DNA from: a virus
Reading direction: 5' to 3' (one strand)
Length of the DNA: 27,299 nucleotides
IMG/VR virus record: IMGVR_UViG_3300046642_001529
Span: 1-27,299 of that record
The notes under the pieces are model-generated. The model was not told the origin of the DNA. It searched no databases and saw only the letters and a list, made by a program, of their open reading frames with translations. This document shows, in pieces, positions 1,128-25,943 of the stretch (positions are counted from its first letter, which is position 1; every line of letters starts with the position of its first letter). The position numbers and the translations under genes are program-made.

Positions 1128-1403
1128 GTGTCTACTCCCACCGCCCCGACCACACCCGTCCCGCCGCCCCGGAAGCTCAGCGTGTCGACCGTCGCCCTGT
1201 GGGTGCTGCTGGCCGCCGTCCTCGGATCCGCGCCGTCCCTGCTGGCCGTACCCGTGTGGATGCTGCACCAGCCGTGGATCACCGTGCCCGCGCTGCTGAT
1301 CGTGGTCATCGCCCGCTTCAACCCGAAGGCCCTGCTGACGGTCGCCCTGCTCGGCCGCCAGTACGTGGTGCAGCAGCGCCAGTCCAAGACCGCCACCGCC
1401 TGA
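1128..1403 (+). CDS. small membrane protein, Spd-like (91 aa)
   Basis: GTG start behind a GGAAGGA site. After a proline-rich N-terminus of about 22 residues, the protein has hydrophobic stretches at roughly residues 23-43 and 46-63, with a further weak one near 66-76, then a basic Gln/Arg/Lys tail. Small membrane proteins of this kind (Spd, plasmid spread) accompany TraB-type translocases on Streptomyces plasmids and help DNA spread through the mycelium. The Spd assignment rests on size, topology and the neighbouring DUF2637-like and FtsK/TraB-like genes, not on a diagnostic motif. Confidence 0.65.
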   Translation: MSTPTAPTTPVPPPRKLSVSTVALWVLLAAVLGSAPSLLAVPVWMLHQPWITVPALLIVVIARFNPKALLTVALLGRQYVVQQRQSKTATA

Positions 1404-1437
1404 ACCCCCAACCGCCCGACCAGATAGGAGAAGCCCC

Positions 1438-2841
1438 GTGAGCGCCACCCCGGCCCAGGTGAACGGCACCAAGCGGCTTGCCGTGCCCGTGTATGAGGGC
1501 TGGCAGTCGTTCCCGATCATCAGCGGCGTCATCCAGAACGAACAGACCGCACCGGAAGTCGCGGCCCCCGCCGCGCTCGTGCCCGCCGTCGACCCGCGTG
1601 CCGAGGCCGAGGCCGAGGCCATCCGGGCGCAGACCGCCGCCGCCGTTGAGGCCGCCCGCATCGAGGCCGAAGCGAAGGCCGAAGCGATCCGCGCCAAGGC
1701 CGAGGCCGAGGCCGAGCGCCTGCGGCTCGCCAACGAGCGCAACCGCATGGCCCTGGAGGAGAAGCAGGCCGCGCACGCCCGGAAGCTCGCCGAACTCCAG
1801 GCCGAGCAGGAGGAGATCGACCGCCAGGCCGCCGCCGCCCGCAAGAAGGCCGACGACGAAGCCACCGCCGAAGCCGAGGAGCAGCGCAAGCAGCAGGAAG
1901 CCGAGGCTGCGACGCTCGCCGAGATCGCCGCCGCTGACGACAAGTGGCGCAAGTACGCGATCCGGTTCGCGTTCATCTGCGGCATCGTCTCCCTGCCGGT
2001 CCAGATGTCGTTCTTCTGGAACCCGCGCGCCCCGTGGATGGCCGCCGCCCCGGTGATGCTCGAAGGTGCCGCGTGGGTTGTTCACCGCGGTGCCCGAGCG
2101 GCCGTCGCGAACCGCCGTCCCGTCTGGCACTACCGCACGATCGTCTGGCTGCTGGCGTTCGTCGCAGCCGGCGTCAACCTGTACCACGGCCTCCACTCGT
2201 TCGACCCGGGTACGGCACTCGCCACGGCGTTCGCATCGATCGCCGGCCCCGGTGTGTGGGACCTCCACGAGCACGGCCGGATCCGCAAGCGAGCTGGCGT
2301 GCTAACGCGCCGGGAGCGTAAGGCGCAGCAGGCCGCGACGAAGCGTGCCGCTGCCGAGAAGGCTGCCGAGAAGAGGTTCGCGGCGGAGCGCGAGGCGTAC
2401 ATCGAGCACGCTGAGCGCGAGGCCGTCGCGAAGCTCGCCGCCGGCCGCGCGGCGAAGTTCCCGAAGGTGTGGGAGCACGCCCTGAAGTTGGCTGCCGCGC
2501 TCGGCGAAACGACCGTGACCCAGGCCGTCTGGGTGCGTGCCTACAGAGACATCGAGGGCACCGACCCGGGCGACAGCGTCGACGTCATCCGCACCCGCAA
2601 CGTCGCCGCGCGGCGCGTCGCGGCGGCCCTCTCGGAAGCCCCCGGGAATACACCCAGCAAGGTCACGAACGCGCAGCGTGTTCCACATCTGCCCCCTAGC
2701 TCCGGACGCGGCTCGAAGACCGGTCCGAAGGTGCGCGGCATCCGCCGCCAGGGCGACGCTCCGAAGTTCGCGCAAGCCGCCCGCACGCAAGCCGCCATCA
2801 CCGCCAAGAACGTCACCACCAACCCCTCGAAGGAGTCCTGA
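1438..2841 (+). CDS. DUF2637-type coiled-coil membrane protein, SpdB-like (467 aa)
   Basis: GTG start behind ATAGGAG. Residues about 45-165 form a long Ala/Glu/Lys/Arg coiled coil with repeated A-E-A-E units. Residues about 170-280 hold several hydrophobic segments of the DUF2637 type (F-I-C-G-I-V-S-L-P-V-Q-M-S-F-F and W-L-L-A-F-V-A-A-G-V-N). A second charged helical region and a basic Ser/Thr/Lys tail follow. This architecture is typical of SpdB-like proteins encoded just upstream of TraB/FtsK-like translocases on Streptomyces conjugative plasmids and integrative elements, where they are thought to act at the membrane or peptidoglycan with the pump. The gene ends three bases before the next ATG. 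An alternative view is a regulatory DUF2637 protein unrelated to transfer. Confidence 0.8.
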   Translation: MSATPAQVNGTKRLAVPVYEGWQSFPIISGVIQNEQTAPEVAAPAALVPAVDPRAEAEAEAIRAQTAAAVEAARIEAEAKAEAIRAKAEAEAERLRLANERNRMALEEKQAAHARKLAELQAEQEEIDRQAAAARKKADDEATAEAEEQRKQQEAEAATLAEIAAADDKWRKYAIRFAFICGIVSLPVQMSFFWNPRAPWMAAAPVMLEGAAWVVHRGARAAVANRRPVWHYRTIVWLLAFVAAGVNLYHGLHSFDPGTALATAFASIAGPGVWDLHEHGRIRKRAGVLTRRERKAQQAATKRAAAEKAAEKRFAAEREAYIEHAEREAVAKLAAGRAAKFPKVWEHALKLAAALGETTVTQAVWVRAYRDIEGTDPGDSVDVIRTRNVAARRVAAALSEAPGNTPSKVTNAQRVPHLPPSSGRGSKTGPKVRGIRRQGDAPKFAQAARTQAAITAKNVTTNPSKES

Positions 2842-2843
2842 CC

Positions 2844-3383
2844 ATGTCCCGCCAGTCCATCCGTATCGTCCGCTCCGTGGCCCTGTCGGGTGCTGCTCTG
2901 GCGGCGCTCGGGATCGCCACTCCGGCGGTCGCCGCAGCCGCCGAGCACACCTCCACGGTGCAGTCCGTTCAGGCCGCCACCGACACCACCGTCCGCCTCG
3001 CCGACGGCACCCGCACCATGACCGTCCGGGGCCTGCCGACCACCCACTACGCGGCCAGCGCCGACCACTCCGACGCGGTCATCACCGTGGCCGCCGTCCA
3101 GCCGTCCGTCGCCCCCGCGATCGACGCGAACGTCACCCCGGCGGTCGACCAGGTCACCCCGGCGAGCGTCAGTGGCGGCACCATCGGCGCCGGCCTCGTC
3201 GGTCTGATGCTGATCGGCGTGGTCGTGTTCATCGGCATCAAGGGCCGGAAGGTTGCCCCCGGTTGGGCGATCACGCTCGTCGCGCTCGGAGTGCTCCTGG
3301 ACGGGACGTTCGTCGGCCCGCTCATCAAGCAACTCACCACCTCCGTCGTCACCGCCGCCGCCTCGACCCTCGGCAACCTCTAA
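2844..3383 (+). CDS. exported membrane-anchored protein of transfer module (179 aa)
   Basis: ATG start behind CGAAGGAG, two bases after the preceding stop, so probably co-translated with it. The N-terminus is a clear signal peptide: basic residues (R-Q-S-I-R-I-V-R), a hydrophobic core, then A-V-A-A-A-A at about residues 28-33. An extracellular Thr/Val/Asp-rich region follows. Two membrane segments lie at about residues 115-134 and 142-160, separated by a short basic loop (K-G-R-K). Topology and position match the small Spd-like membrane proteins next to TraB on Streptomyces plasmids. Function inferred from context only. Confidence 0.7.
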   Translation: MSRQSIRIVRSVALSGAALAALGIATPAVAAAAEHTSTVQSVQAATDTTVRLADGTRTMTVRGLPTTHYAASADHSDAVITVAAVQPSVAPAIDANVTPAVDQVTPASVSGGTIGAGLVGLMLIGVVVFIGIKGRKVAPGWAITLVALGVLLDGTFVGPLIKQLTTSVVTAAASTLGNL

Positions 3384-3404
3384 CCCACCCGGAGCCCCGC
3401 CGCC

Positions 3405-5627
3405 ATGACCACGCACGCCACCCCGCCCGAGACGGCGGGCCCCCAGATCCCGGTCCAGAACCCCATCCCGCCCATGCCCGGCCATGCCCCCTGGTTCAAG
3501 TCGCCGGTCCCCGCCGGCGCGCCGCCGCCGCAGCACAAGCTGACCGTGTGGGCCCAGACCAAGCGCGGCTGCCACCTCCTCTACCAGCAGGGCCGCGCCT
3601 GGGCCCTGCTGGTAGATGCAGACGAGGAGACCCTCGCCAAGGACGTCATCCACAAGCGGGCCGCCGAGAACCGCAAGGCCATCCGCCAGCACCACAATGA
3701 AGTCCGCGACCTGCAGAAACAGGCCGCTGCTGCCACCAACCAGGGACACCCCGGGACGGCAGACCGCTTCAACCAGGCATTCGCAACTCGCGTCACCATC
3801 GGCCCCGTACTCCCGCACGCGGACGACGACGTCACCGAGAAGGACATCAAACGCCACAAGCTCACCCAGCAGGCCAGCCGGTGCGCCATGGTGGCTGCGG
3901 GCGTGGTGGCCGGCTGGATGACGCTGGGGAAGATGCAGCACCCCATCCTCGGCATCCTCGCCGCGCTCCTCGGCGGGTTCGGTGCGGCGTGGTGGGCGGG
4001 GCGGAACCGCGAGGCCGACGACAAGGAGTCGTCTCCGGTAACGCTGGCCGCTGAGTCGCCCGCCACCATCGCCGCCGCAGCCTCCGCAAGCGCTGTGGGT
4101 CCGGTCGCGCTCACGAAGTCCGAGGACGTACAGGTGCGGGGCGCGAACGACCTGGTCACCGCGCTCATCAAAGCGAAGATCATCGAAGAGGCCGACCGCG
4201 AAGAGACCAGCGTGCTCGGACTCCGCACCGACGGCCCCGGCTGGACCGCCACCATCGAACTGCCCGGCGGACGCACCGCCGAGCAGGCCATCGCCCGCCT
4301 CGTACCGCTCGCCGGCGCACTGCGCGTCAAGGCATCGCGCATCGAACTGAAGAAGGACACCAGCGCCGAGGGGCATGAAGGTCGGTTCACCATCTGGGTC
4401 GCCGACGCCGACAACCCGTTCGGCACCGGCAAGACCACGTCACCCCTGATCAACGCCCCGGAGTGGAACTTCTGGCAGCACGGCGTACCGCTCGGCCAGG
4501 ACGCCCGGCATGACCGGCAGGCACTGCACCTGCTGTGGTCGTCGCTGCTGATCGGTGGTCTGCAGGACTACGGCAAGTCGTACCTGGCACGGCTGATCGC
4601 CTCCGCTGGCGCCCTTGATCCCTACGTGCGGATCATCGTTATCACCGGCAAGTCCGGGCCGGACTGGGCGGCCCTCAAGAAGATCGCCCACGCCTACATT
4701 TCCGGCTCCAAGCCGGACACCCTCGTCGAAGTCCACGAGGTGCTGGACGACTTGATCGGCAGCATGCAGAACCTCGGCGAGCAGTTGGAGAGCCTGTCCG
4801 AGACCGACCCCCAGCAGTGCCCCGAAGGCAAGCTCACCCCGGCGCTCGCCCGGCAGCCGGACAAGAGGCTCACCCTCCTCATCGTCGACGAGCTCCAGGA
4901 ACTCCTTGACGCCGCCGCGAACACCCGCGTCAAGGTCGTCGAGGAGGACGAGGACGGCAAGGGTGCGAAGCATCGCAACGGCAAGGACGTGCTGGTCGAG
5001 ACCCTCGCCCGGTACGTGCGCGTGGCCCGGTTCGTCGGCGGCATGGGCGTGTTCATCACCCAGCGCCCCGACTCCGACAGTGTCCCGACCAAGCTGCGCG
5101 GGGTGTGCGTGAAGCGCGCCTGCTTTCGGGTCAAGGGCGATGCCTCCGCGCGGATGGTTCTCGGCGACGACGCCGTGCAGGCCGGCGCGGCGCCGCACAA
5201 GCTGCTGGAGCACCACAAGGGTGTCGTGGTCCTGGATCAGGGTGCGGAGTCGGGTCACATCACGCAGAAGTCCGATGTGATCGAGCTGCCGGAGTTCCGG
5301 GAGATCGTGGAGCGCGGCTACGACCTGCGGGTGAAGGCCGGGACGCTGACGGGTCAGGCGGCGTCGCGTAGTCGTGTCGATGAGGCGGTGGCGCGTGCGG
5401 CGGAGATGCGCCGGGATGCGGTGGCGGTGTTCGACCGGCTGGGGGTTCCGGAGACGCAGGGGCTGACGGCTGAGTCGCTGGCCGAGGAGGTGGGCGTTGA
5501 TGTGGATGCTCTGCGGGAGCGTCTGCGCCGGGATGGGATCACAACAACGAACATCGTGACGTTCGGGGATCGCAAGCGCCTGAAGGGCTTCAAGCGGGAT
5601 CAGTTCGCCTCCCTGGAGGCGGCCTGA
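3405..5627 (+). CDS. FtsK/SpoIIIE-like DNA translocase, TraB/TraSA-like (740 aa)
   Basis: A membrane-anchored hexameric ATPase predicted to pump double-stranded DNA. A proline-rich N-terminus is followed by a soluble region, a hydrophobic pair at about residues 159-200, and a RecA-like motor domain. The Walker A motif is G-L-Q-D-Y-G-K-S (residues 385-392) and Walker B is L-L-I-V-D-E (Asp495, Glu496). They are followed by the FtsK-type sensor F-I-T-Q-R-P-D-S-D. The C-terminal 100 residues look like a winged-helix DNA-reading domain (L-A-E-E-V-G-V-D-V-D-A-L-R-E-R-L), similar in place to FtsK gamma or the TraB clt-binding domain. On Streptomyces plasmids one such protein suffices for conjugative transfer of duplex DNA. 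The three preceding Spd-like genes support that role. A phage role in genome partition is possible too. Confidence 0.88.
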   Translation: MTTHATPPETAGPQIPVQNPIPPMPGHAPWFKSPVPAGAPPPQHKLTVWAQTKRGCHLLYQQGRAWALLVDADEETLAKDVIHKRAAENRKAIRQHHNEVRDLQKQAAAATNQGHPGTADRFNQAFATRVTIGPVLPHADDDVTEKDIKRHKLTQQASRCAMVAAGVVAGWMTLGKMQHPILGILAALLGGFGAAWWAGRNREADDKESSPVTLAAESPATIAAAASASAVGPVALTKSEDVQVRGANDLVTALIKAKIIEEADREETSVLGLRTDGPGWTATIELPGGRTAEQAIARLVPLAGALRVKASRIELKKDTSAEGHEGRFTIWVADADNPFGTGKTTSPLINAPEWNFWQHGVPLGQDARHDRQALHLLWSSLLIGGLQDYGKSYLARLIASAGALDPYVRIIVITGKSGPDWAALKKIAHAYISGSKPDTLVEVHEVLDDLIGSMQNLGEQLESLSETDPQQCPEGKLTPALARQPDKRLTLLIVDELQELLDAAANTRVKVVEEDEDGKGAKHRNGKDVLVETLARYVRVARFVGGMGVFITQRPDSDSVPTKLRGVCVKRACFRVKGDASARMVLGDDAVQAGAAPHKLLEHHKGVVVLDQGAESGHITQKSDVIELPEFREIVERGYDLRVKAGTLTGQAASRSRVDEAVARAAEMRRDAVAVFDRLGVPETQGLTAESLAEEVGVDVDALRERLRRDGITTTNIVTFGDRKRLKGFKRDQFASLEAA

Positions 5628-5895
5628 TAGGCCGTACACCCCCCGTACAGGGCGGCTGTTTGCCCAGGTAGATGCCGGTATGTGACCCGTACACCCCCCG
5701 CTCACCGGCCACCTGGGGCCGTCCACCTGTACGGCTGATGGCCCCGACTGTACGCCCCGCATACCGGCACATAGCGGTCACTGCACGGGGGGTGTACGCC
5801 CCACAAACCAACACAAACCACCGCCCCCGACGGGGGCTTCCCTCAGCACACCCAAAAACCGGGACCACCCCGGACCAACCCGAAAGGAGCCCGTC
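5628..5895. repeat. noncoding region with GTACACCCCCCG repeats
   Basis: The 12-mer GTACACCCCCCG occurs at 5634-5645 and 5689-5700 on the plus strand and inverted at 5786-5797. A second motif, TGCCGGTATG, occurs once in each orientation (about 5673-5682 and 5759-5768). Single CTGTACGG/CTGTACGC copies lie between. The set forms a broad dyad directly after the translocase gene. That position suits a cis-acting transfer locus bound by the TraB-like protein, an operator for a GntR-type regulator, or an origin. No open frame here has a credible start and site. Confidence 0.6.
5823..5837 (+). terminator. short GC hairpin before accessory genes
   Basis: GCCCCC (5823-5828) pairs with GGGGGC (5832-5837) around a GAC loop, followed by TT. 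This may end transcription from the translocase operon. Weak compared with the long hairpins elsewhere in the window. Confidence 0.45.
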
Positions 5896-6294
5896 ATGGG
5901 CACTTGGTACCGCGCCACCGACTGGATCGACGGAAAGCTCACCGACGCCATCCACAAGACCGGCGCCAGCAACGAAGCCAAGCGCTTCGCCAAGAAGGTC
6001 GTGATCGGCAAGACCTACTACACGATCAAGACGGACAACGGACCGGGCGCCCGGCAGTACCTCGACGAGCACGTCTTCACGAAGATCTCGACCTTCACCG
6101 GCCTGCCCGAAGGCGCCCCCGACGTGTGGGCGTGCGCCGGCCGGGTCTACGACAGCCGCAACGCCCCCGGCTGTAAGGGCCTCATGACCCTGCGCGAGTA
6201 CCGCGAGTGGCTCAACGAAGACGACGGACCGGACATCAGCCGCAACCTCAACGACTACGCCGACAAGCCCAAGCACGGCCGTCGCGCCGCCTGA
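5896..6294 (+). CDS. conserved hypothetical protein (132 aa)
   Basis: ATG behind CGAAAGGAG. A soluble, mixed-charge protein with an amphipathic N-terminal half (G-T-W-Y-R-A-T-D-W-I-D-G near the start) and a central K-T-Y-Y-T-I-K segment. Two cysteines near residues 80-96 lie in W-A-C-A-G-R-V-Y-D and P-G-C-K-G. The C-terminus is basic. No catalytic motif, signal peptide or membrane segment is visible. It leads the accessory gene series and follows the repeat region, so its transcription may be controlled there. Family not recognised. Confidence 0.65.
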   Translation: MGTWYRATDWIDGKLTDAIHKTGASNEAKRFAKKVVIGKTYYTIKTDNGPGARQYLDEHVFTKISTFTGLPEGAPDVWACAGRVYDSRNAPGCKGLMTLREYREWLNEDDGPDISRNLNDYADKPKHGRRAA

Positions 6295-7311: not shown

Positions 7312-7854
7312 ATGCCCGCCACGACCGTCACCCTCGCCGCCCCGGTCCAGCCCGCGGCCCGCATCACCCCCGCCCCGGAGCTGAGCCTGGAAGCGCGGAT
7401 GGCGGCCGTGGACGCGGCCATGACCATCCGCCTCGAAGAAGCCAGCCTCGCCAACGACATCAACACCGCGCACATCGCCACCGAGCCCGTCGACTTAGCC
7501 GACATCATCCGCGGCCCCGTCGACACTCCCCGCACGCCAGTCGACCTGTACCCGACACCCGTCGCCAACCTCCTCCAGCGGGCACATCAGCGGCTCACCC
7601 GCGACGGATGGTGCGCCGGCGCCCTCCGCAACACCGACGGCGCGCGCTGCCTGCTCGGAGCCATCCGCATCGAATCCGGCGGCAACCACGGCGCCGAGAC
7701 CGAAGGGCTCGCAGTCCTTATGGCCGCCATCCGGCGGCGCTTCGGCAACGACGTCGAATCCGTGTGGTCCTTCAACGACGCCCACGGCGGCCCCCGAGTA
7801 CCCCTCCGCATCCTGGGAGAAGCAGCCGACCTCGCAGCAGCCAGAGACATCTGA
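7312..7854 (+). CDS. DUF6197-like protein (180 aa)
   Basis: The ATG at 7312 is chosen for its GCAGGAG site. An Ala/Pro-rich N-terminal third leads into a domain starting near residue 85. It reads L-L-Q-R-A-H-Q-R-L-T-R-D-G-W-C, then R-C-L-L-G-A-I-R, then V-W-S-F-N-D-A-H-G-G, and ends in L-G-E-A-A-D-L-A. This order (GWC, CLLGAI, the W-x-x-N-D pair, a terminal Ala-rich helix) matches my memory of the DUF6197 family. Those are small proteins common in actinobacteria and their phages, with no established biochemistry. The family call is from memory of the pattern. Confidence 0.65.
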   Translation: MPATTVTLAAPVQPAARITPAPELSLEARMAAVDAAMTIRLEEASLANDINTAHIATEPVDLADIIRGPVDTPRTPVDLYPTPVANLLQRAHQRLTRDGWCAGALRNTDGARCLLGAIRIESGGNHGAETEGLAVLMAAIRRRFGNDVESVWSFNDAHGGPRVPLRILGEAADLAAARDI

Positions 7855-11438: not shown

Positions 11439-12740
11439 GTGGGCTTCCCGACCGGTGCCACCACGATCGCGGTCACCATTAACCGGCCCGTCCCGGCCGG
11501 TGGCGCAGCAAACACCGGCAGTGTGGTCTTCACGCCATCCACGATCCTGGTCGACTCCACCCACAAAGCGATCTACTCCGGATCCGGGGCAGCCGTCCTC
11601 GACAACGGCGGCGCGGCCAGCATCGTTCTCCTCACCAACGACTCCGCAGGCGTCCTGCCCGCCGGATGGCGATGGCAAGTCGACGAGCAGATACCCGGCG
11701 CCCGCCGCACCTACTGGATCGACCTGCCGTCCACGCTCGGGCCCACCATCGACCTGTCCGCCCTCTCCCCGGTCTCCGGGCCGGACGGCTCCGGCGGCAG
11801 CCTCCCGCCCACCGGGCCAGCAGGCGGAGCCCTCTCCGGCACCTACCCCAACCCCGGACTGTCGGCGTCCACCGTGGCAATGTTCGACGCGGCAGGGGCA
11901 GCAGGGATCGCCCAGACGAACGCCACAACGGCGGCAGCGGCAGACGCCACGACGAAAGTCGCCGCACACCGGACCGCCACCGACCCCCACGGCGACCGGG
12001 CCTACACAGACACGGCCATCGCCGCCCGGCCGGCGTTCCTCACCACCAGCGGACAGCCCGACAACGCCCTCGGCATCAACGGCGACTGGGCCATCGACCC
12101 CGGTGCGCGCCGCCTCTACGGGCCGAAGACCGCAGGCGCATGGGCGACCTGGTCGCAGATCACCGCTCCCACCGGTGCGACCTGGCAGCTCAACGGCCAA
12201 GCCGCCCTGACCGGCAGCGACCTGTACCTCACGCACGCCACCGACGGCTTCGGCGCCGGAACCTGCTGGAACACCACCCTCCAGCCCACCGACGGCCTCG
12301 ATGTCACCTTCGAGGTCGAGATGTCCGGCGGAACCGGGGCCGATGGTGTCACCTTTGCGCTTGCTGATCCGGCGACCGTGGCCACGTTTGTCGGCGGAGG
12401 CGGCGGTGACCTCGGGCTCGTCGGCTGCACCGCTGTAGCGCTCGCCCTGGACACCGGAGCCGGTTCGAGAGCCCGCCTCGTCACCACCGATGCGACCACC
12501 ATGACGGCCCTCGTCACCTACGGCGGCGCGCTCACCCTGCGGCCCGCGCCGGTTCAAGTCCGGATCCGGTACCTGAGCGGCGTGTTCACCGCATGGATCG
12601 ACGACGTACAGATCGTCAATCAGGCCGTGGTCGCGGCGGCGAGCGCCCGCATCGGCTGGACGGGATCCAACGGCGGCGCCAACGACAACCACATCGTTCG
12701 CAATGTCGCCTTCACGCCCCGCGGCGGACTGCCGCTCTGA
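11439..12740 (+). CDS. tail fibre protein with L-type lectin domain (433 aa)
   Basis: GTG 11439 behind GGGAGGTG. A beta-rich N-terminal domain of about 100 residues, possibly the virion anchor, is followed by a Gly/Pro/Ser linker. A collagen-poor fibre segment contains T-D-P-H-G-D-R-A-Y-T, a sequence style common in trimeric phage fibres. Residues about 248-427 resemble a legume/L-type lectin jelly roll: G-A-D-G-V-T-F-A-L-A-D, G-G-D-L-G-L-V-G-C, V-A-L-A-L-D-T, V-R-I-R-Y-L-S-G, and R-I-G-W-T-G-S-N-G-G near the end. This predicts a carbohydrate-binding adhesin for the actinobacterial surface. It heads a coupled series with the next two genes. Confidence 0.78.
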   Translation: MGFPTGATTIAVTINRPVPAGGAANTGSVVFTPSTILVDSTHKAIYSGSGAAVLDNGGAASIVLLTNDSAGVLPAGWRWQVDEQIPGARRTYWIDLPSTLGPTIDLSALSPVSGPDGSGGSLPPTGPAGGALSGTYPNPGLSASTVAMFDAAGAAGIAQTNATTAAAADATTKVAAHRTATDPHGDRAYTDTAIAARPAFLTTSGQPDNALGINGDWAIDPGARRLYGPKTAGAWATWSQITAPTGATWQLNGQAALTGSDLYLTHATDGFGAGTCWNTTLQPTDGLDVTFEVEMSGGTGADGVTFALADPATVATFVGGGGGDLGLVGCTAVALALDTGAGSRARLVTTDATTMTALVTYGGALTLRPAPVQVRIRYLSGVFTAWIDDVQIVNQAVVAAASARIGWTGSNGGANDNHIVRNVAFTPRGGLPL

Positions 12741-12773
12741 ACGCCACAAGACCACAGACGGAGGTGAGCGGCC

Positions 12774-13070
12774 ATGGCCACCTACGCCGGCAGCCGCATC
12801 CAGCACCAGACCCTCACCGCCTCCACCGTCGACACGGTCACCTTCGACGCCGACTACACCTACGTCGAGATCGTCAACCGTGACGGGGCGGCAGAGATCT
12901 ACGCCACCGTCGACTCCGGCATCACCCCCTCCGTCGGCGGTGCCGGCTGCGACGTCCTGCCCGCAGGCATGAGTTCGCTCATCGTCAACGCGTCCGGCTA
13001 CGGCTCGCCCACCAGCGTCAAACTCATCAGCGCCGGGACCCCGGCCTACACCGTCAAGGGCCTGCTGTGA
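12774..13070 (+). CDS. small beta-rich tail-associated protein (98 aa)
   Basis: ATG behind GGAGGTGAG. The sequence alternates short strands (V-D-T-V-T-F-D-A-D-Y-T-Y-V-E-I-V-N-R-D-G) with glycine turns and has a C-x-V-L-P-A-G-M segment. Small beta-sandwich proteins of this look lie between fibre genes in many Streptomyces phages. Its TGA overlaps the GTG of the spike gene, so the two are probably made together. A fibre accessory or decoration protein is the best guess. Confidence 0.6.
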   Translation: MATYAGSRIQHQTLTASTVDTVTFDADYTYVEIVNRDGAAEIYATVDSGITPSVGGAGCDVLPAGMSSLIVNASGYGSPTSVKLISAGTPAYTVKGLL

Positions 13071-16909: not shown

Positions 16910-16942
16910 AAGCCCCCGACCCACTCCGGGTGTCGGGGGCTT
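16910..16942 (+). terminator. perfect 11-bp hairpin terminator
   Basis: AAGCCCCCGAC (16910-16920) pairs with GTCGGGGGCTT (16932-16942) across an 11-nt loop. It separates the first HNH operon from the second HNH gene, whose ATG is 20 bases downstream. Confidence 0.75.
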
Positions 16943-16962
16943 CGTCACACCCGGAGAGCGTC

Positions 16963-18061: not shown

Positions 18062-18529
18062 ATGCCGAAGGGTGGAGCACGCGCACGTTCTGGTCCTGCC
18101 CCTGATCCGAATGCGCTTCGGCGTGAGCGGGATGCCGGTGAGTGGACGATTCTGCCTGCTGAGGGCCGTCAGGGCTCAATGCCCGTCTGGCCGTTGACGG
18201 ATCAGAGTGTCCGCGAGGACGAGCTGTGGGAGCGGCTGTGGCGGATGCCGCAGGCACTGATGTGGGAGCGGTTCGGCCAGGAGATCGAGGTGGCGCTGTA
18301 CGTCCGGCGGCTCTCGGAGGCTGAGCTGATGGATTCCCGGGTGAACTTGTCGACGCTGGTGCGGCAGATGGCCGACTCTCTGGGCTTGACGACTCCGGGG
18401 ATGCGGGCGAATCGGTGGCGCATCACCGCGGAGGAGGCGCCGGCCCGGCCTGTGGCGGGGCGTTCGGCGCCGGTGCGGTCGTCGGCGCGGTCGCGGTTGA
18501 AGGTCGTCCCGGGCGATGGAGAAGAGTAG
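18062..18529 (+). CDS. terminase small subunit (155 aa)
   Basis: ATG behind GAGGAGAG. The start, K-G-G-A-R-A-R-S-G-P-A-P-D-P-N-A, is the basic Gly/Arg/Pro opening common to actinophage small terminases. It is followed by a helical core (D-E-L-W-E-R-L-W-R-M-P-Q-A-L-M-W-E, Y-V-R-R-L-S-E-A-E) and a basic Ser/Arg/Pro tail. The small subunit recognises the packaging site and recruits the large subunit. The gene overlaps the large terminase start by 14 bases, the usual arrangement. No clear HTH is visible by eye, so the call leans on the start, length and position. Confidence 0.82.
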   Translation: MPKGGARARSGPAPDPNALRRERDAGEWTILPAEGRQGSMPVWPLTDQSVREDELWERLWRMPQALMWERFGQEIEVALYVRRLSEAELMDSRVNLSTLVRQMADSLGLTTPGMRANRWRITAEEAPARPVAGRSAPVRSSARSRLKVVPGDGEE

Positions 18530-20135
18530 CGAGTTCGTCGTCGACTTCCCAACGCTGTGGGTGGCTTGCGACTGGATCGAGGAGCATTGCCGTATCCCAG
18601 ATGGCTTCCGCAAGGGTGAGCCGTTCCAGATGTACGACTGGCAGTTGTGGTGCACGGCGAACTTCTACCGCGTGAAGCCGACTGCGACGGTGGGCCAGCT
18701 GGCGCCGGCATTCTTTTACCGCCGCTCTCAGTGCGTGGCACCACAGAAGACCGGCAAGGGTCCGTGGACAGCGGCGATCTGCGCGAATGAGGGAGTCGGT
18801 CCGGCGGTCTTTGACGGCTGGGCGGTTGGCGGCGAGGTGTATGACTGCCGCGATCACGGCTGCGGCTGCGGGTGGGTGTACGAGTACTCACCGGGAGAGC
18901 CGATGGCGATTCCGTGGCCGACTCCGCTGGTGCAGATCACGGCGTTCTCGGAGGAGCAGACCGACAACGTCTACCGGCCCTTGCAGGCGATGATCCGAAC
19001 CGGCCCGCTGGGTGAGCTGATGCGGGTCGGCGAGCAGTTCATTCGCCTGCCCAACGACGGCCGCATCGACGTGGTGACGTCATCGGCGCAGTCCCGCCTG
19101 GGCAACCCGGTGACGTTTGTCCTGCAGGACGAATCGCAGCTCTGGACGCCCGCGAACAAGATGGACCGGGTTGCCACGACCCAGCGCCGCGGCGCCGCCG
19201 GTATGGGTGGCCGGACGATGGAGACCACGAATGCGTGGAACCCGTCGGAGAACAGCGTCGCGCAGGCCACGTCCGAGGCGAAGGTCAAGGACATCTTCCG
19301 GTTCCACCGGATACCGCCGGCGTCGCTGAAGTACACGAACAAAACGGACCGGCGGAAGATCCACCGGCATGTCTACATGGGCTCGACGCACGTCGACCTG
19401 GATGCGATCGAGGCCGAGGCCGCCGAGTTGCTGGAGAAGGATCCGGAGCAGGCGGAGCGGTTCTTCGGTAATCGCATCGTGTACGGCGCCGGGTCGTGGA
19501 TGAACGGCGACGCATGGGACACCCTCGCGGAGCCCCGCGAGGTTCCGGACGGTACGACGGTCGTGGCGGGCTTCGACGGCTCGGACGTTGATGACTGGAC
19601 GGCGCTTCGCCTGGAGACGCTGGACGGCTACCAGTTCACGCCGACGTTCGGTCCGGACGAGTTGCCGACGATCTGGAATCCGGCGGACTACGGCGGTCAG
19701 GTACCTCGCCTTGAAGTGGCCGCGGCGGTCGACGAGGTGTTCACGCGTTTCGACGTGCTGCGCATGTACTGCGACCCGCCCTACTGGGAATCCGAGGTCG
19801 ACGGATGGGCGGACCGACACGGCGAAAAGCGCGTGGTCCGCTGGTACACGTACCGCACGGTGCAGATGCACGCCGCGGCGGAACGGCTGCTGACGGACGT
19901 CACGAAGGCCGGTTCGGTGTTCCGGCATGACGGCTGTGTGATCACGGCCGCGCACGTCCGGAACGCCCGTAAGGCGGCCCGCGTCGGCGGCCGGTACGTG
20001 CTCGGCAAGGCAAGCCCGTCTCAGAAGATCGACGCCGCGATCCCCAGCATCCTCGCCCACGAGGCGGCTGGTGATGCGACGGCCGCCGGCCTGGCCCGTC
20101 CCAAGAAGAAGTCCAAGATGATCGTCATGCGGTGA
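18516..20135 (+). CDS. terminase large subunit (539 aa)
   Basis: ATP-driven DNA packaging motor and nuclease. The start at ATG 18516 overlaps the small subunit gene. Q-K-T-G-K-G (Lys81) is the Walker A-like loop, preceded by R-R-S-Q-C-V-A-P. Walker B is F-V-L-Q-D-E (Asp205, Glu206). The RNase H-like nuclease half carries acidic residues in A-G-F-D-G-S-D (Asp354), Y-C-D-P-P-Y (Asp420) and Q-K-I-D-A-A-I (Asp506). A C-D-H-G-C-G-C-G-type segment (C-R-D-H-G-C-G-C-G) near residue 110 may bind zinc. Length is normal and no intein is present. It sits between small terminase and portal, with the portal start four bases after its stop. Confidence 0.9.
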   Translation: MEKSSEFVVDFPTLWVACDWIEEHCRIPDGFRKGEPFQMYDWQLWCTANFYRVKPTATVGQLAPAFFYRRSQCVAPQKTGKGPWTAAICANEGVGPAVFDGWAVGGEVYDCRDHGCGCGWVYEYSPGEPMAIPWPTPLVQITAFSEEQTDNVYRPLQAMIRTGPLGELMRVGEQFIRLPNDGRIDVVTSSAQSRLGNPVTFVLQDESQLWTPANKMDRVATTQRRGAAGMGGRTMETTNAWNPSENSVAQATSEAKVKDIFRFHRIPPASLKYTNKTDRRKIHRHVYMGSTHVDLDAIEAEAAELLEKDPEQAERFFGNRIVYGAGSWMNGDAWDTLAEPREVPDGTTVVAGFDGSDVDDWTALRLETLDGYQFTPTFGPDELPTIWNPADYGGQVPRLEVAAAVDEVFTRFDVLRMYCDPPYWESEVDGWADRHGEKRVVRWYTYRTVQMHAAAERLLTDVTKAGSVFRHDGCVITAAHVRNARKAARVGGRYVLGKASPSQKIDAAIPSILAHEAAGDATAAGLARPKKKSKMIVMR

Positions 20136-20139
20136 GGGG

Positions 20140-21585
20140 GTGCCTGTGGAGCGCTCCGAGCTGCAGTGGTTGACGCATCTGATCTCCTGCCACGACAAGG
20201 AGCTGAACGAGCTCAAGCGCCTGAACTCCTACTACGAGGGCTCTCAGCCGCTGTCGTACATGGCTCCTGAGCTCCAGGTGGAGTTGCAGGAGACGGTGCG
20301 GCAGGTGGTCATCAACTGGCCGCGACTGATCGTCGACAGCATCGAGGAGCGTCTGGATGTCGAGGGCTTCCGTTTCCCCGGGGTGGCGGATGCCGATGAC
20401 GAGTTGTGGCGGATCTGGCAGGCCAATGACATGGACGAGCAGTCGCAGATGGGGCATCTGGATGCCCTGGCGATGCGGCGCTCGTACATCGTGGTGGGCG
20501 CGAACGAGGATGACGACTCGACCCCTCTGATCACCGTCGAGAGCGCCCTGGACATGTTCGCGGAGTTCGATCCTCGGACGCGTCGGGTGGCTGCGGCGGT
20601 GAAGCGCTGGCAGGAGGATGGCGAGGGTGATCGGAAGGTCGATCACGCGACGCTGTATCTGCCGGATGTCACGGTGTGGTGGGTGAAGGAGTCGGGTCAC
20701 TGGGTCGAGGACCCGGAGTACCCGCGGGATGAGCATGAGACGGGCGAGGTTCTCGTTGAGGTGCTGCCGAACCGTCCGCGCCTGAAGTGTCCGGGCGGTG
20801 TCAGTGAGCTCCAGGATGTGATCCCGCTCTCCGATGCGGCCTGCAAGATCGCCACGGACATGATGGTGTCCGCCGAGTACCACGCCACCCCGCGCAGGGT
20901 CGCGTTCGGCTTCGGCGAGGACGACTTCGTCGATTCCGAGGGCCGTCGGGTGTCCGCGTTCAGCCGGATCATCGGCCGGATGTGGGCGACGGAGCGGCGC
21001 AAGGGATCGGGCGAGGATGGCGGCGCAGACGTCATCCAGTTCCCTGAGGCGTCGCTCAGCAACTTCCACCAGACCCTCAATCAGCTTGCCCAGCTCGTCA
21101 GCTCGCTGTCGGGCCTGCCGCCGCAGTTCCTGGGCTACAGCACCCAAAACCCGGCGTCGGCGGATGCGATCCGTTCCAGTGAGACGCGGCTGGTGAAGCG
21201 CGCAGAGCGGAAGCAGCGGGCGTGGGGCGGCTCATGGGAGCGCGTCATGCGGCTGGTTCTGCGCGTCAAGGATGGCGAGTGGGATCCGGCGGCCCGGTCG
21301 CTGGAGACCCTGTGGCGGGATGCGGCGACGCCCACTGTCGCCCAGGTGGCCGACGCCGCAGTGAAGAAGTTCCAGACGAAGATCGTGCCGCTGCGGCAGA
21401 CCCGCGAAGACCTGGGCTACACGCAGGCGCAGATCCAGCGCATGGAAGAAGAGGACGAAGCCGCGGCCCAGGACGCGGTGCAGCGCATCATGGCTGGCGA
21501 CTTCTCGGCACTGGAGGCGGGCCCGAAGCCTCCGCCCGATCCCGTCATACCTGAGGCTGACCCCGAACCCGCGCAGGTGGCCTGA
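20140..21585 (+). CDS. portal protein, SPP1 gp6-like (481 aa)
   Basis: GTG 20140 with GAGGGGG upstream, four bases after the terminase stop. The N-terminus shows the SPP1-type portal pattern: L-K-R-L-N-S-Y-Y-E-G-S-Q-P-L at about residues 24-37, then V-V-I-N-W-P-R-L-I-V-D-S-I-E-E-R-L. The middle has L-S-S-L-S-G-L-P-P-Q-F-L-G-Y, with N-P-A-S-A-D-A-I-R just after, another strongly conserved portal stretch. The C-terminus is acidic and proline-rich. Twelve copies form the ring at the capsid vertex through which DNA enters and to which the connector binds. Its stop overlaps the ATG of the minor head gene. Confidence 0.9.
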   Translation: MPVERSELQWLTHLISCHDKELNELKRLNSYYEGSQPLSYMAPELQVELQETVRQVVINWPRLIVDSIEERLDVEGFRFPGVADADDELWRIWQANDMDEQSQMGHLDALAMRRSYIVVGANEDDDSTPLITVESALDMFAEFDPRTRRVAAAVKRWQEDGEGDRKVDHATLYLPDVTVWWVKESGHWVEDPEYPRDEHETGEVLVEVLPNRPRLKCPGGVSELQDVIPLSDAACKIATDMMVSAEYHATPRRVAFGFGEDDFVDSEGRRVSAFSRIIGRMWATERRKGSGEDGGADVIQFPEASLSNFHQTLNQLAQLVSSLSGLPPQFLGYSTQNPASADAIRSSETRLVKRAERKQRAWGGSWERVMRLVLRVKDGEWDPAARSLETLWRDAATPTVAQVADAAVKKFQTKIVPLRQTREDLGYTQAQIQRMEEEDEAAAQDAVQRIMAGDFSALEAGPKPPPDPVIPEADPEPAQVA

Positions 21586-23564
21586 TGGCCACGGGGTCGG
21601 TGCGGGATCTGTCGGCCGAGGAGCTCGCGAACGCCTTCTACGTGGCTCAGCAGTCGCATGCCCGCCGGGTGACGGACCGGGTTCAGCAGTTGTGGCGGGA
21701 GATCGACCGCCGCGATCTGAGCCGGTCGTGGGCCATCTTCATCGGCCCAGAGGTGGTTCGCACTGTGACCGCCGGCCAGCTGGCTACGGCGGCGGCGGCG
21801 GACGCCTACGTTGAGTCCATCATCGCGGCGGGAGGGCTGAGTTCGGATCCGGCGGGGCGCGTTCGGCCCGAGGCCTTTGCTGGGCTTGCCGCTGATGGTC
21901 GGTCGCTGGACACGCTGCTGGATCTGCCGCTCATCACGTCGAAGACGGCCATCGCAGCGGGTGCCGATGAGGTCGAGGCGATGATGACGGGCCTGCAGCA
22001 GTTGCTGCGGATGGCGGCGTCGGAGGTCACGGATGCCGGGAGGGCGGCTACCGGGGTGTCGATCGCGGGGAACCGCACGATCAACGGCTACATCCGGGTG
22101 GTCAACCCGCCCGCCTGCAGTCGGTGCATCATCCTCGCCGGACGGGAGTACGGCTGGAACACCGGCTTCCAACGGCATCCGCGCTGCTTCCCGGCCGGAG
22201 TGGTGGTGTCGGGGCCTAGGTCACAGGCGGCCACGCGGCGGTGGTTCCAAGGGGAACTCATTGTCCTCTCTACCGCGAGCGGCCAGAACCTCGCCCTGAC
22301 CGGAAATCACCCGGTACTGACAAGTCGCGGGTGGGTTCCGGCGAACCTCATCCAGGAAGGCGACGAGGTGGTCCGCAGCACCCGCCCCGAGGGCGCTACG
22401 CCCCTCGTGGTCCCAGATCATCACGAGATGCCATCCCTCATCGAGGACGTATGGGGTGCGCTCAGCGTGCACGGTCTTGACCGCATGCCAACCGCCACCG
22501 AGGACTTCCACGGCGACGGGCAGCAAGGCGAGGTCGACGTTGTATACGCCGATCGCGCGCTGGCGAGTGGCAATCTGGCCACGGTCGGCAAGAAGTTGGT
22601 GCAACTTGGCCTCGCCGGAGGACTGGGCTTGACCGGCCAGTTCGATGCCGAGCGCGCGTCGATGCTTTTGAATCTGTGGGACGCGACGCAATCGGGCGGC
22701 CCGGTTGGCGGCGGCGGCCTGGGTCTTGCGCTCGCCAGCGCTCAACTTGGCCGCCCTGACAACGCCAGCTTCACTGGCGTCACGCCGCTGTACTCCGGCT
22801 TCCGCGAGGCGGCGCGCGATGACATTTCGGGACACCCCGTACTGCTTGCCGAGCGCGAACTCGCTGGCTCCATTGAGGTAGGCGGACGCGATTTCACTGA
22901 TGGGGAGATCGCGGGTCTTCCGCGATGGGATGCCCCGGGAGACTCGTTCTCGGTGGAAACGCGTGACGGATATGCCCGCCAAGGTCGCGATCTCCTGGAT
23001 CGGCTTTCCGGACAGGTAGAGCTCGATCGCGTAGTCGAGCTTCGCCGGGGCGAGTGGAGCGGGCACGTTTACAGCCTCACTTCGGTCGAGGGGTGGCACG
23101 TTGCGAACAGTCTCATTGTATCAAACTGTGACTGCACACATATGCCCGCAAAGCTCATCGCCCGCGACCGTCACATCCCCGGCGCGTTCGATCCGCAGGC
23201 CTACTTCAAAGGTCTGTCCCGCGCCGAGCAGGACCGCATCTTCACCCAGGCCGGCGCGAACGCGATCCGGGACGGCGCGGACATGAACTCCGTCGTCAAC
23301 GCCCGCCGCGGCATGTACACCGCGGCCGACGGCTACGGCGGCCGGGCGCGCGCCACCTACGAGGGCACTACCCGCCGCGGCCTGTACTTCCAGATGGAGC
23401 GGTCCCGCGCCTACCGGGCGGGCACGGCTTCGCCCCGGTATCCCAGACAGTTCCAGCTTTCCTCGCCGCGCTTGCTGCCTGAGCAGATTTACCGGCTCGC
23501 TGGTAGCCGCGATGAGGCAATCAGTTTGCTCCGCCAGTACGGCTATCTGGGCTGGAGCGTCTGA
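21585..23564 (+). CDS. MuF/VG15-like minor head protein interrupted by an intein (659-aa precursor)
   Basis: The ATG overlaps the portal TGA. The N-terminal 200 residues are helical and match the VG15/MuF-type minor head proteins that actinophage annotations often call capsid maturation protease. They lead to P-A-C-S-R-C-I-I-L-A-G and Q-R-H-P-R. An intein occupies residues 201-514. The C-terminal part resumes with C-D-C-T-H-M-P-A and continues to a helical tail. Removal of the intein joins H-P-R to C-D-C, giving H-P-R-C-D-C-T-H, the expected metal-binding-like motif of the MuF domain, and a 345-aa mature protein of ordinary length. MuF proteins sit inside the head at the portal. The gene is unlike its neighbours in base composition only across the intein. 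Confidence 0.88.
   Translation: MATGSVRDLSAEELANAFYVAQQSHARRVTDRVQQLWREIDRRDLSRSWAIFIGPEVVRTVTAGQLATAAAADAYVESIIAAGGLSSDPAGRVRPEAFAGLAADGRSLDTLLDLPLITSKTAIAAGADEVEAMMTGLQQLLRMAASEVTDAGRAATGVSIAGNRTINGYIRVVNPPACSRCIILAGREYGWNTGFQRHPRCFPAGVVVSGPRSQAATRRWFQGELIVLSTASGQNLALTGNHPVLTSRGWVPANLIQEGDEVVRSTRPEGATPLVVPDHHEMPSLIEDVWGALSVHGLDRMPTATEDFHGDGQQGEVDVVYADRALASGNLATVGKKLVQLGLAGGLGLTGQFDAERASMLLNLWDATQSGGPVGGGGLGLALASAQLGRPDNASFTGVTPLYSGFREAARDDISGHPVLLAERELAGSIEVGGRDFTDGEIAGLPRWDAPGDSFSVETRDGYARQGRDLLDRLSGQVELDRVVELRRGEWSGHVYSLTSVEGWHVANSLIVSNCDCTHMPAKLIARDRHIPGAFDPQAYFKGLSRAEQDRIFTQAGANAIRDGADMNSVVNARRGMYTAADGYGGRARATYEGTTRRGLYFQMERSRAYRAGTASPRYPRQFQLSSPRLLPEQIYRLAGSRDEAISLLRQYGYLGWSV
22221..23066 (-). 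CDS. antisense HTH + Vsr/EDxHD-like homing endonuclease nested in intein (281 aa)
   Basis: Lies wholly inside the intein on the other strand, in exact codon register. GTG 23066 is preferred: AGTGAGG lies eight bases upstream. GTG 23099 is the longest option (292 aa; numbering below uses it). Two helix-turn-helix units come first: P-I-Q-E-I-A-T-L-A-G-I-S-V-T-R-F, then F-A-L-G-K-Q-Y-G-V-S-R-N-V-I-A-R-R-L. The nuclease domain has S-G-E-A-K-L-H (Glu163), Y-N-V-D-L-A (Asp189), V-A-V-E-V-L-G-G-G-W-H (Glu198, His205) and M-I-W-D-H (Asp230). This is the E-D-x-H-D order of Vsr-like homing endonucleases. C-Q-Y-R-V-I-S-G-Q-G-E closes the fold. Long antisense frames are common in high-GC DNA, so the call rests on these motifs and not on length. 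Confidence 0.82.
   Translation of the reverse strand: MPAPLAPAKLDYAIELYLSGKPIQEIATLAGISVTRFHRERVSRGIPSRKTRDLPISEIASAYLNGASEFALGKQYGVSRNVIARRLAEAGVQRRDASEAGVVRAAKLSAGERKTQAAAANRAARLRRVPQIQKHRRALGIELAGQAQSSGEAKLHQLLADRGQIATRQRAIGVYNVDLALLPVAVEVLGGGWHAVKTVHAERTPYVLDEGWHLVMIWDHEGRSALGAGAADHLVAFLDEVRRNPPATCQYRVISGQGEVLAARGREDNEFPLEPPPRGRL
23115..23123 (-). promoter_or_regulatory. candidate extended -10 promoter for the antisense endonuclease
   Basis: On the minus strand this reads TGATACAAT, an extended -10 (TGn then TACAAT, one change from TATAAT). No -35 match is seen, which extended -10 promoters tolerate. Transcription from it would start near 23108, about 40 bases before GTG 23066. In the sense frame it is the I-V-S codons ATT GTA TCA of the intein splice motif, all rare in such high-GC DNA. 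Confidence 0.5.
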
Positions 23565-23625: not shown

Positions 23626-24414
23626 ATGCACAGCATCCGTAAGAGCTGGCTGTCCGCCGCCCAGGGCGCGGGCTGGTTCCGGCTGGACCGTCACGACGAC
23701 CCCGACCCCGCAGATCCGGCCGACCCGGATCCTGCGGACCCCAAGGGCGACCCGGACCCCGATTCCGTGGACCCGGAACCCGACCCGGACCCAGACGGTG
23801 CCGACAATCTCGGCGACGCTGGCAAGCAGGCCCTTCAGCGCATGAAGGATCAACTCAAGGCGGCCAAGCAGGAGCTGAACGAGCTTCGTGAAGCCAAGTC
23901 AGATGCCGTCCAGACTCGGCAGGCTCGCAAGGATGCCACCGAGGCAAGGAAGCGCGCCGAAGAACTGGCCCGCAAGGTCGCCGAGTTCGAGGATCGCGAC
24001 AAGTCGGAACTGGACAAGGCGACCGCGAAGGCCGAGCGTCTCGCCGATCAAGCCGCTAAGGCAACGGCCCGCGCGGTGCAGGCCGAGGTTCGGGCGCTGT
24101 CCACTGGCGCGTTCGCCGACCCGACGGACGCGGCGGAAGTTCTCATGCGCGATCCGTCGAAGTACGTCGATGACGGCGGCGACATCGACACCGCCGCCAT
24201 CCAGGCGGCCCTCGACGACCTGCTGGAGCGCAAGCCCCACTGGGCGAAGCCCGAGCCGGCCGCTCCGGAGCCGGAGAAGAAGCCGGTACGCCAGCCGAAG
24301 CCCGACCCGGGCCAGGGTGCGCGCCTGCCGACTCCGGCCACGGACTTCCGGACGGCCCCGAAGGAAGAGGTCGCGGCCGAGCTGGCGAAGTACGGCTTCC
24401 GGCAGCGCTACTAG
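23626..24414 (+). CDS. capsid scaffold protein (262 aa)
   Basis: ATG 23626 behind CGGGAG. Residues 17-24 are W-F-R-L-D-R-H-D, repeated in the major capsid protein. A highly acidic Asp/Pro repeat region (residues about 24-60) is followed by a long charged coiled coil (Q-R-M-K-D-Q-L-K-A-A-K-Q-E-L-N-E-L). A C-terminal domain has G-A-F-A-D-P-T-D-A-A-E-V-L and a basic proline-rich end. This acidic start, coiled coil and folded end are typical of head scaffolds, which guide capsid assembly and leave before DNA entry. The last base of its TAG is the first of the protease GTG, so expression is linked. Family-level identity from architecture and position. Confidence 0.85.
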   Translation: MHSIRKSWLSAAQGAGWFRLDRHDDPDPADPADPDPADPKGDPDPDSVDPEPDPDPDGADNLGDAGKQALQRMKDQLKAAKQELNELREAKSDAVQTRQARKDATEARKRAEELARKVAEFEDRDKSELDKATAKAERLADQAAKATARAVQAEVRALSTGAFADPTDAAEVLMRDPSKYVDDGGDIDTAAIQAALDDLLERKPHWAKPEPAAPEPEKKPVRQPKPDPGQGARLPTPATDFRTAPKEEVAAELAKYGFRQRY

Positions 24415-24605: not shown

Positions 24606-25943
24606 ATGAGCTCAACCATGACCGCGGTCCGCCCGCGGCTGAATGTCCAGCGGCGCGCGACGCGGCCGTGGTTCCGCCTCGACCGACACGACGTCCGCAG
24701 CACCGTCCCGGCGGCGATCCGCGCGATGCTGCAGAACGGCACCCTCGACCGCGTCTTCCAGGACGCGCTCGTGCCGGAGTTCCTGTTCCCGCAGATCGCC
24801 GACTCGCAGCCGTGGATGGGCGGCCTCGGTGACAACAAGACGTTCACCCGCCGAGGCCTGCTCGCGACGGCGACGACCGCGATCACCGGGTCGGACCCGT
24901 CGGCGGCCACGTACAACCTGGAGCAGTACTCGGTCACGATGGACCAGTACGGCAACAGCATGGACACCAACATGCTGTCCAGCTCGATGGCCCTGGCCAA
25001 CAAGTTCCTGTCCGACGGCGAGACGCTGGGCATCAATGCCGGCCAGTCCCTGAACCAGATCGCCCGCAACAAGCTGTACAAGGCCTATGCGGGCGGCCGA
25101 ACCTGGTGCACCACTGCTGGGTCGTCGGACACCAGCATCATCGTGCAGTCCGCGAACGGCTTCGAGCAGGTGCTCGTCAACGGAGTCCCGACCGCGGTGT
25201 CGGCGTCGAACCCGCTGACCGTGTCGATCGCCGGTGTCGCAAACACCGTGACCGGCGTCAACACGGGCACCAGCACGCTGACGCTCGGCACCGCCCGCGT
25301 CGATGTCGCTGGCGACTACGTGGTGGCGGCGAACGCCCCGGTTTCGATCCGGGCGACCGGCAACTCGGCCTACGACCTGTCCAGCAGCAACACGGTCACC
25401 TTCGCGAACTTCCGGAGCGCGGTCGCGCGCCTGCGGAAGATGGCGGTTCCGACGCTGGGCGGCTACTACGCGGCCCACATCGACCCGGACACCGAGGCCC
25501 AGCTGTTCGCGGACTCCGACTTCAAGCAGGCCCTGCAGGGCCGCGTTGACTCGCCGATCTACCGGGACCTGTCGATCGGCCGGTTCGCGGGCATCGACTG
25601 GGTGCGCAACCTGGAGACCCCGACCATCGCCAACGGCGGTTCGGCGGGCACGCTCACGGTGCACCGCCCGGTCGTGCTGGGCGCGGGTGCGCTGATCGCG
25701 GCCCCGTTCGAGAAGACCGGAACGCTCCTGGACGGCTCCGGCGTCGAGGACGTCCCGGAGATCCGCAACATCACCCCGGCGGCGGGCGTGGACATCTCGC
25801 TGATCGTGCGTCCGCCGACCGACCGTCTGCAGCAGGTCATCTCCACGACCTGGTCGTGGGTCGGCGACTACGGCGTTCCCTCCGATGCGGGCACGGGCGA
25901 CGCGGCGCTGTTCAAGCGCGGTGTCGTTATCGAGCACGCCTGA
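24606..25943 (+). CDS. major capsid protein (445 aa)
   Basis: ATG 24606, three bases after the protease stop, with CAGGAGTG just upstream. The basic N-terminus (about 20 residues) is followed by W-F-R-L-D-R-H-D at 22-29. Then comes a helix (T-V-P-A-A-I-R-A-M-L-Q) and P-E-F-L-F-P-Q-I-A-D-S. The body shows an HK97-type pattern with an N-arm-like region and the spine helix A-N-F-R-S-A-V-A-R-L-R-K. A Thr/Val/Gly-rich insertion of about 80 residues (roughly 185-265) could be an I-domain-like decoration, as in P22-type coat proteins. The C-terminus has D-I-S-L-I-V-R-P-P-T-D-R-L. Hundreds of copies build the head shell. Confidence 0.88.
   Translation: MSSTMTAVRPRLNVQRRATRPWFRLDRHDVRSTVPAAIRAMLQNGTLDRVFQDALVPEFLFPQIADSQPWMGGLGDNKTFTRRGLLATATTAITGSDPSAATYNLEQYSVTMDQYGNSMDTNMLSSSMALANKFLSDGETLGINAGQSLNQIARNKLYKAYAGGRTWCTTAGSSDTSIIVQSANGFEQVLVNGVPTAVSASNPLTVSIAGVANTVTGVNTGTSTLTLGTARVDVAGDYVVAANAPVSIRATGNSAYDLSSSNTVTFANFRSAVARLRKMAVPTLGGYYAAHIDPDTEAQLFADSDFKQALQGRVDSPIYRDLSIGRFAGIDWVRNLETPTIANGGSAGTLTVHRPVVLGAGALIAAPFEKTGTLLDGSGVEDVPEIRNITPAAGVDISLIVRPPTDRLQQVISTTWSWVGDYGVPSDAGTGDAALFKRGVVIEHA

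Follow-up and report, generated by a model that had tools for sequence, protein, structure and literature searches.

A plasmid-type transfer cassette with a TraB-like DNA pump and a candidate clt site in a probable integrating actinophage

In Streptomyces, a single TraB hexamer assembled on the clt locus moves double-stranded DNA, and TraB recognises 8-bp TRS repeats in clt (PMC4170104). TraB alone, together with clt, is enough for plasmid transfer in Streptomyces (PMC4170104, PMC3583192), and the membrane protein SpdB2, which binds both TraB and DNA, aids the spread across cross-walls (PMC4170104). The clt of pWTY27 is located at and beyond the 3' end of traA (PMC3583192), which is the same place as that of the candidate site described below. 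AICEs are called by an integrase, Rep or Prim-Pol, and an FtsK-type Tra, and integrases and Prim-Pol are common to AICEs and prophages (PMC3218068). Two reports describe pZL12 as a plasmid-phage of Streptomyces that has a locus for conjugal transfer (PMC3583192, PMC4487206), and elements of this kind are therefore already known, with pZL12 as the precedent. The pSVH1 genes begin with a GntR regulator and two small genes, followed by spdB2, one more small gene, traB and a gap, and other Streptomyces plasmids have the same order.

The DNA analysed here, called the window, is a linear IMG/VR record of 27,299 bp with a G+C content of 65–72%, and its likely genes are nearly all on the + strand. A tRNA scan across the whole window detected none, and the tail, lysis, integration and replication regions fall outside this fragment. 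The original prediction described plasmid-type transfer genes at 1128–5627, with a phage packaging and head module downstream on the same strand, and both were found to be real by homology and family searches. The span from 1128 to 5627 consists of exactly four ORFs encoding 91, 467, 179 and 740 aa, and the ORF ends agree with its limits. The order is a 91-aa protein with two TM segments, an SpdB2-like protein, a membrane protein with a signal-like start, a TraB-like protein and a gap. Judged from its sequence, the region 1128–5895 is a plasmid-type transfer cassette, composed of small membrane proteins, SpdB2, a TraB-type pump and a candidate clt. The features of the window are as follows; G001, G002, G007 and G024 are related viral contigs.

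1128..1403, + strand: membrane protein of 91 aa, two TM helices predicted, called Spd-like from its position alone
1438..2841, + strand: 467-aa SpdB2-like protein, a long charged N-terminus followed by a DUF2637-type membrane region (tblastn, BLASTP, profile)
2844..3383, + strand: 179-aa protein, N-terminus signal-like, C-terminus with two hydrophobic helices (hydrophobic segments, position)
3405..5627, + strand: 740-aa TraB/FtsK-type DNA translocase with Walker A and B motifs (BLASTP, motifs, tree)
5628..5895, no strand: candidate clt (translocase loading site), a repeat cluster after the pump gene
5896..6294, + strand: 132-aa protein, first gene past the candidate clt, conserved in G001, G002 and G024
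7312..7854, + strand: DUF6197 protein (PF19698, 8.6e-20)
18062..18529, + strand: probable small terminase subunit, TerS (75% identical to a G007 protein matching Kromp TerS; alternative start at 18179)
18516..20135, + strand: large terminase subunit, TerL, Kromp-like (62% identity)
20140..21585, + strand: portal protein (PF05133, 3.2e-60; phrog_104, 4.3e-143)
21585..23564, + strand: head maturation protease, 659 aa (phrog_1522, 1.2e-89)
23626..24414, + strand: scaffolding protein (phrog_4708, 7.2e-18)
24606..25943, + strand: major head protein (phrog_1357, 7.3e-27)

The gene at 1438–2841, predicted to be DUF2637/SpdB-like, was confirmed as such. Residues 174–284 of its product matched DUF2637-annotated plasmid proteins in tblastn, and the protein matched pSVH1 SpdB2 both in BLASTP (7e-11) and in a profile comparison (99.8%, 1.5e-27). 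The Pfam DUF2637 model gave no match to the 467-aa protein and missed the G002 homologue too; because the same model also misses pSVH1 SpdB2, this result does not mean absence. The SpdB2-like gene is located directly upstream of the pump gene in 8/8 other members of the pump clade described below. The name Spd-like, which had been given to the two small membrane genes, agrees with their position and TM segments and goes no further than these. The gene at 1128–1403 has 95% nucleotide identity to its counterpart in G001, and its product had no family match above the cut-off in the family scans. The 179-aa gene lies between spdB2 and traB, as does the small gene of pSVH1, and its product is 85–93% identical in G001 and G002; a homologue search found no known one. 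The SpdB2-like gene is mosaic: the window and G001 versions (window 1438–2841; L009 3092–4495) are 36% identical, and the flanking genes are 92–99% identical. The SpdB2-like proteins of G001 and G024 share about 70% identity, though the pump of G024 is only 28% identical. An exclusion or compatibility role is possible for this gene.

The prediction of an FtsK/TraB-like pump at 3405–5627 also stood. BLASTP against pSVH1 TraB gave 1e-24 with about 28% identity, and the Walker A (GGLQDYGKS) and Walker B (LTLLIVDE) motifs are present. The sole NCBIfam match was plasmid_TraB (NF041214, 2.8e-7), at 29 bits against a cut-off of 800, so that the pump lies below the curated cut-offs of both this equivalog and PF01580; its best PHROG was the FtsK/SpoIIIE family 1358. 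The protein has a hydrophobic segment near residues 181–199 and a predicted winged-helix-like domain at the C-terminus. The full-length AlphaFold model was poor (pLDDT 49), and the model of the C-terminal 101 residues was a winged helix of moderate confidence (pLDDT 79–87 over most of the core). Comparison of the latter with PDB folds returned mainly winged-helix regulators, in a weak search with no E below 0.03, and a PDB sequence search with the pump gave no match. Comparison of the three closest contigs gave dN/dS values of 0.17–0.20 for the pump, and by this measure the gene is under purifying selection. In tblastn, the pump had zero matches among 50,697 phage records, and hence no plaque-isolated phage is known to use such a pump. 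It matched 80 plasmid records, 64 of which are from Streptomyces, with 31–35% identity at best. Two scans of genome contigs with the window-type pump as the query found no relative.

In the translocase tree, the window pump falls in an 11-member clade (support 100/100), and 11/11 members are from phage. This clade nests in a 35-row set that includes pSVH1 TraB (support 99/98), and outside the set are the FtsKs of phages Gilgamesh and Baka, a remote gene of pZL12, and E. coli FtsK. The phylogeny check proposed with the original prediction thus placed the pump in the TraB-containing set, outside the lytic-phage FtsKs tested, with its own clade phage-only in this sample; a grouping with lytic-phage FtsK was rejected. 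The deeper branching order was unstable once the long branches were dropped. Seven or more changes between phage and plasmid labels, as counted on the first tree, were also rejected, and only three are needed without the long branches; on this tree we estimate at least three switches of the pump between phage and plasmid and claim no more. The function of the pump may have changed to a phage-specific use, as its clade is phage-only.

Downstream of the pump gene come 268 bp that hardly differ between the window, G001 and G002; these three are near relatives, and their repeats are therefore not independent. The motif GTACRCCCC occurs at 5634, 5689, 5750 and 5794 on the + strand and at 5789 on the − strand, and these sites are part of longer repeats, both direct and inverted. 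A stretch of 170 bp (5634–5802) holds all five copies of the 27-kb window, as compared with an expectation of 0.004 per 270 bp, the motif and the repeat threshold having been picked after the sequence was seen. The same gap in the eight other clade members contains 3–7 copies of CCCGGTCG (ACCCGGTCG-type repeats) instead. When the same repeat scan was applied to pSVH1, it detected five copies of GACCCGGA behind traB, which we take to be the published TRS. Repeat-rich gaps were found in 6/7 gaps after a pump gene and in 5/87 other intergenic gaps (P 3.8e-6, close relatives counted). Pumps of different repeat types share 62% identity in the ATPase core and only 23% in the winged-helix/C-terminal domain. 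Within the second repeat type, the values are 86–94% for the core and 73–84% for the C-terminal domain. The DNA-reading domain and the presumed site have changed together, as expected for a working loading system, and the 268 bp look like a transfer locus, a candidate clt. The DUF6197 gene is also located downstream of the pump gene in 8/8 other clade members.

The head module spans 18.1–27.0 kb on the + strand and is closest to that of Streptomyces phage Kromp. Between the transfer module and the terminase, the region 11439–14731 encodes a tail-fibre/lectin-like protein (phrog_14726, PF18483) and a pectin-lyase-like protein (phrog_32881), an unusual site for receptor-binding genes. An HNH endonuclease gene is found at 16930–17709, upstream of the small terminase (PF01844, 4e-7; phrog_1271, 1.5e-29).

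The linkage of the two modules was investigated in related contigs. The pump is present at 94 and 97% in two viral contigs, G001 and G002. Collinearity with the window extends through the portal and protease in G001 (48 kb), whose TerL is only 31% identical, and to about 11.4 kb of the window in G002 (80.7 kb), which then carries a terminase, a major head protein and a tape measure of unrelated type. Upstream, G002 has RecT, DnaB and an integrase, and a GntR/UTRA regulator (4.6e-22), related to plasmid GntRs, is divergent to its spd-tra operon. A SocA/Panacea-type antitoxin-like gene of G002 (PF13274, 1.5e-15) adjoins a 156-aa ORF (L013 2567–3016), and the two are possibly a toxin-antitoxin pair. 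Eight more viral contigs share the pump clade with the window and all carry a large terminase, so that TerL is found in 10/10 relatives of the clade (PHROG 9 or 2); in most of the ten, the FtsK gene is 4–18 kb upstream of TerL on the same strand. A search from the window terminase detected a pump match in 14/30 longer contigs, and 11 of the 14 belong to the TraB-containing part of the tree. Four terminase-linked contigs (G007, G023, G024 and G025) were examined in full. The order in G023 and G025 is integrase, replication genes, pump, TerS, TerL, portal and tail, and G007 and G024 agree with it from the pump on. Another 24 pump matches in viral contigs represent a sister type with 66–100% identity to the G023 pump, and in 7/24 of these contigs a terminase match lies within 5 kb, one of them on the opposite strand.

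Two complete circular Pseudonocardia molecules of 27.4 and 41.9 kb contain a Pfam-recognised DUF2637 gene beside FtsK, and they also hold a terminase, a prohead protease and a major capsid protein. These two circular "plasmids" (NZ_CP053567 and CP052773) resemble phage genomes with DUF2637-FtsK, and one of the two also has an integrase, Prim-Pol and a primase, which would make it an AICE by the usual rules. From the repeated occurrence of this linkage, both in independent contigs and in complete circular molecules, we conclude that the transfer module and the head module form one element. Two separate adjoining elements, which had been named as the outcome that would overturn the prediction, and a misassembly were both rejected, as the linkage recurs with different terminases. 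Three near-identical early regions (pump 94–97%) are joined to three different large terminases (L010 2926–4545, window 18516–20135, L012 201–1445), and two of them then continue into the same portal and protease. Going by these identities, the exchange of packaging modules among the near-identical early regions is recent.

The rest of the element was checked for replication, partition and integrase genes, as had been proposed with the original prediction. ParA was found in 1/22 related contigs. A tyrosine integrase match (E ≤ 0.001) was found in 13/22 and a serine recombinase in three, which gives about 15/22 with either. The 27-kb fragment itself contains no integrase, which is present in G002 and most long relatives, and family scans of the window genes recognised no partition or plasmid replication gene in this fragment. 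With integrases in about 15/22 and ParA in 1/22, the group is therefore called temperate integrating phages, some members of which occur as circles. The original prediction, a phage-plasmid with a plasmid-type transfer module, holds in that the module belongs to a phage, and it is not supported for the group as an autonomous replicon. The gene pattern is that of integrating temperate phages or AICE-phage hybrids, as far as gene content tells, with two Pseudonocardia relatives recorded as circular plasmids; G023 and the P. broussonetiae circle carry an integrase, Prim-Pol and the pump. The window is probably part of a temperate, likely integrating, Streptomyces-type siphophage that has in its early region a complete plasmid-type cassette, which would move double-stranded phage DNA across septa and between hyphae.

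Since the phage has a TraB-type pump, a candidate clt and SpdB2, the same use on its own unpackaged genome is the most economical explanation, and we hold it somewhat more likely than not. After induction or infection, a TraB hexamer would load on the repeats at 5634–5802 via its C-terminal winged-helix domain, and the loaded pump would move double-stranded phage DNA that has not been packaged through contacts at septa or hyphae. A channel that SpdB2 and the small membrane proteins may form or extend would let the DNA spread across the cross-walls of the recipient mycelium. In this way a mycelium, and perhaps also the one next to it, could be colonised by the phage with no virions made, and packaging into Kromp-like heads would still be possible. 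The genes, their homology and order, the repeats and their co-change with the domain, the phage linkage and the purifying selection are read from the sequences, and from there we infer binding, loading, transfer and their timing in the phage cycle. A wider reading, to which we give a probability of about 0.4, is that a widespread group of integrating actinophages spreads in two ways, by virions and by naked double-stranded DNA pumped through septa and between hyphae with their own TraB-clt-SpdB2, and that the pump and its site co-evolve within the phage lineage.

The same genes could serve inside one mycelium only, where the pump and SpdB2 would move the phage genome or prophage through septa or into pre-spores, aiding the spread of infection or the maintenance of lysogens with no donor-to-recipient conjugation. 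Streptomyces hyphae are compartmented, SpdB2 has been linked to plasmid stability and to spread within the mycelium (PMC4170104), the pump clade is phage-only (11/11), and the cassette is kept with quite different head modules, all of which fit such a use. Plasmids, however, do both steps with the same genes, and the retained clt-like repeats and the GntR control resemble those of conjugative plasmids, and we regard the restricted use as rather unlikely. A lysogen that is an extrachromosomal replicon and also conjugates has a model in pZL12 (PMC3583192, PMC4487206) and in the two Pseudonocardia circular plasmid records that combine DUF2637-FtsK with phage structural genes. This is doubtful for the present group, in which ParA is rare (1/22) and integrases are frequent (about 15/22); moreover, the pZL12 translocase is on a very long branch away from the window clade, and no replication or partition gene was identified in the window.

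A borrowed pump might instead have another job, such as superinfection exclusion or manipulation of the host chromosome. The exchange of SpdB2-like alleles is independent of the pump, which would suit genes for exclusion or compatibility, and FtsK-like genes with no assigned role occur in other phages too. On the other side, the repeats adjoining the pump gene change with its DNA-binding domain, which fits the loading of the element's own DNA, and we consider another job quite improbable. Taken alone, the window would also fit a misassembly, or a prophage next to which an AICE or a plasmid has integrated, and integrases and Prim-Pol occur in AICEs and prophages alike (PMC3218068). The same order is nevertheless found in G001, G002 and eight contigs with different terminases, in more distant phages and in circular molecules; such a chimera is hardly credible for the window and is refuted as a general account by this recurrence.

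Transfer by both virions and pumped DNA, if true, would change the view of infection in mycelial hosts, on which plaques are usually explained by virions alone. Many related viruses hold the same set of pump, spreading protein and probable loading site. If these phage mating cassettes work, a lysogen could convert a whole mycelium without free particles, and even a receptor-less neighbour would be convertible. The line between AICEs, conjugative plasmids and prophages would then blur, and some Int-Rep-Tra "AICEs" would be phages and vice versa. That the repeat and the DNA-binding domain change as a pair offers a direct and cheap handle on function. In the open-licence papers searched, we found no description of a family-wide integrating phage lineage with a transfer cassette, a clt-like site and co-change of pump and site.

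Compared with known systems, the FtsK-like genes of lytic phages (Gilgamesh, Omegavirus Baka; PHROG 1358) share the FtsK/SpoIIIE ATPase core with the window pump, but they lie outside the TraB-containing set and no DUF2637 gene is annotated beside them. The Kromp-like Streptomyces phages (Kromp, Dubu, phiSASD1) have a TerL 58–62% identical to that of the window, and the head gene order of Kromp is the same; they differ in the pump, which was matched in no phage record. G023 and the P. broussonetiae element have the three genes by which AICEs are called, and the window fragment has Tra only, but the AICE definition is without the terminase, portal and capsid that the window element has. pZL12/phage ZL12 (NC_013420) likewise combines phage structural genes, an FtsK-type gene, GntR and an integrase on one element, but it is a ParA/ParB plasmid and its translocase is only remotely related to the window pump in the tree. 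The Streptomyces venezuelae conjugative plasmid pSVH1 shares the order of spdB2, small gene, traB and repeat-bearing gap, with homologous SpdB2 and TraB and a GntR regulator as in the relative G002. The identity is about 28%, the small membrane genes are not homologous, and the 8-bp repeats of the pSVH1 clt are different from the repeat of the window. pSVH1 is a Rep plasmid, whereas the window cassette lies instead in a phage with head genes.
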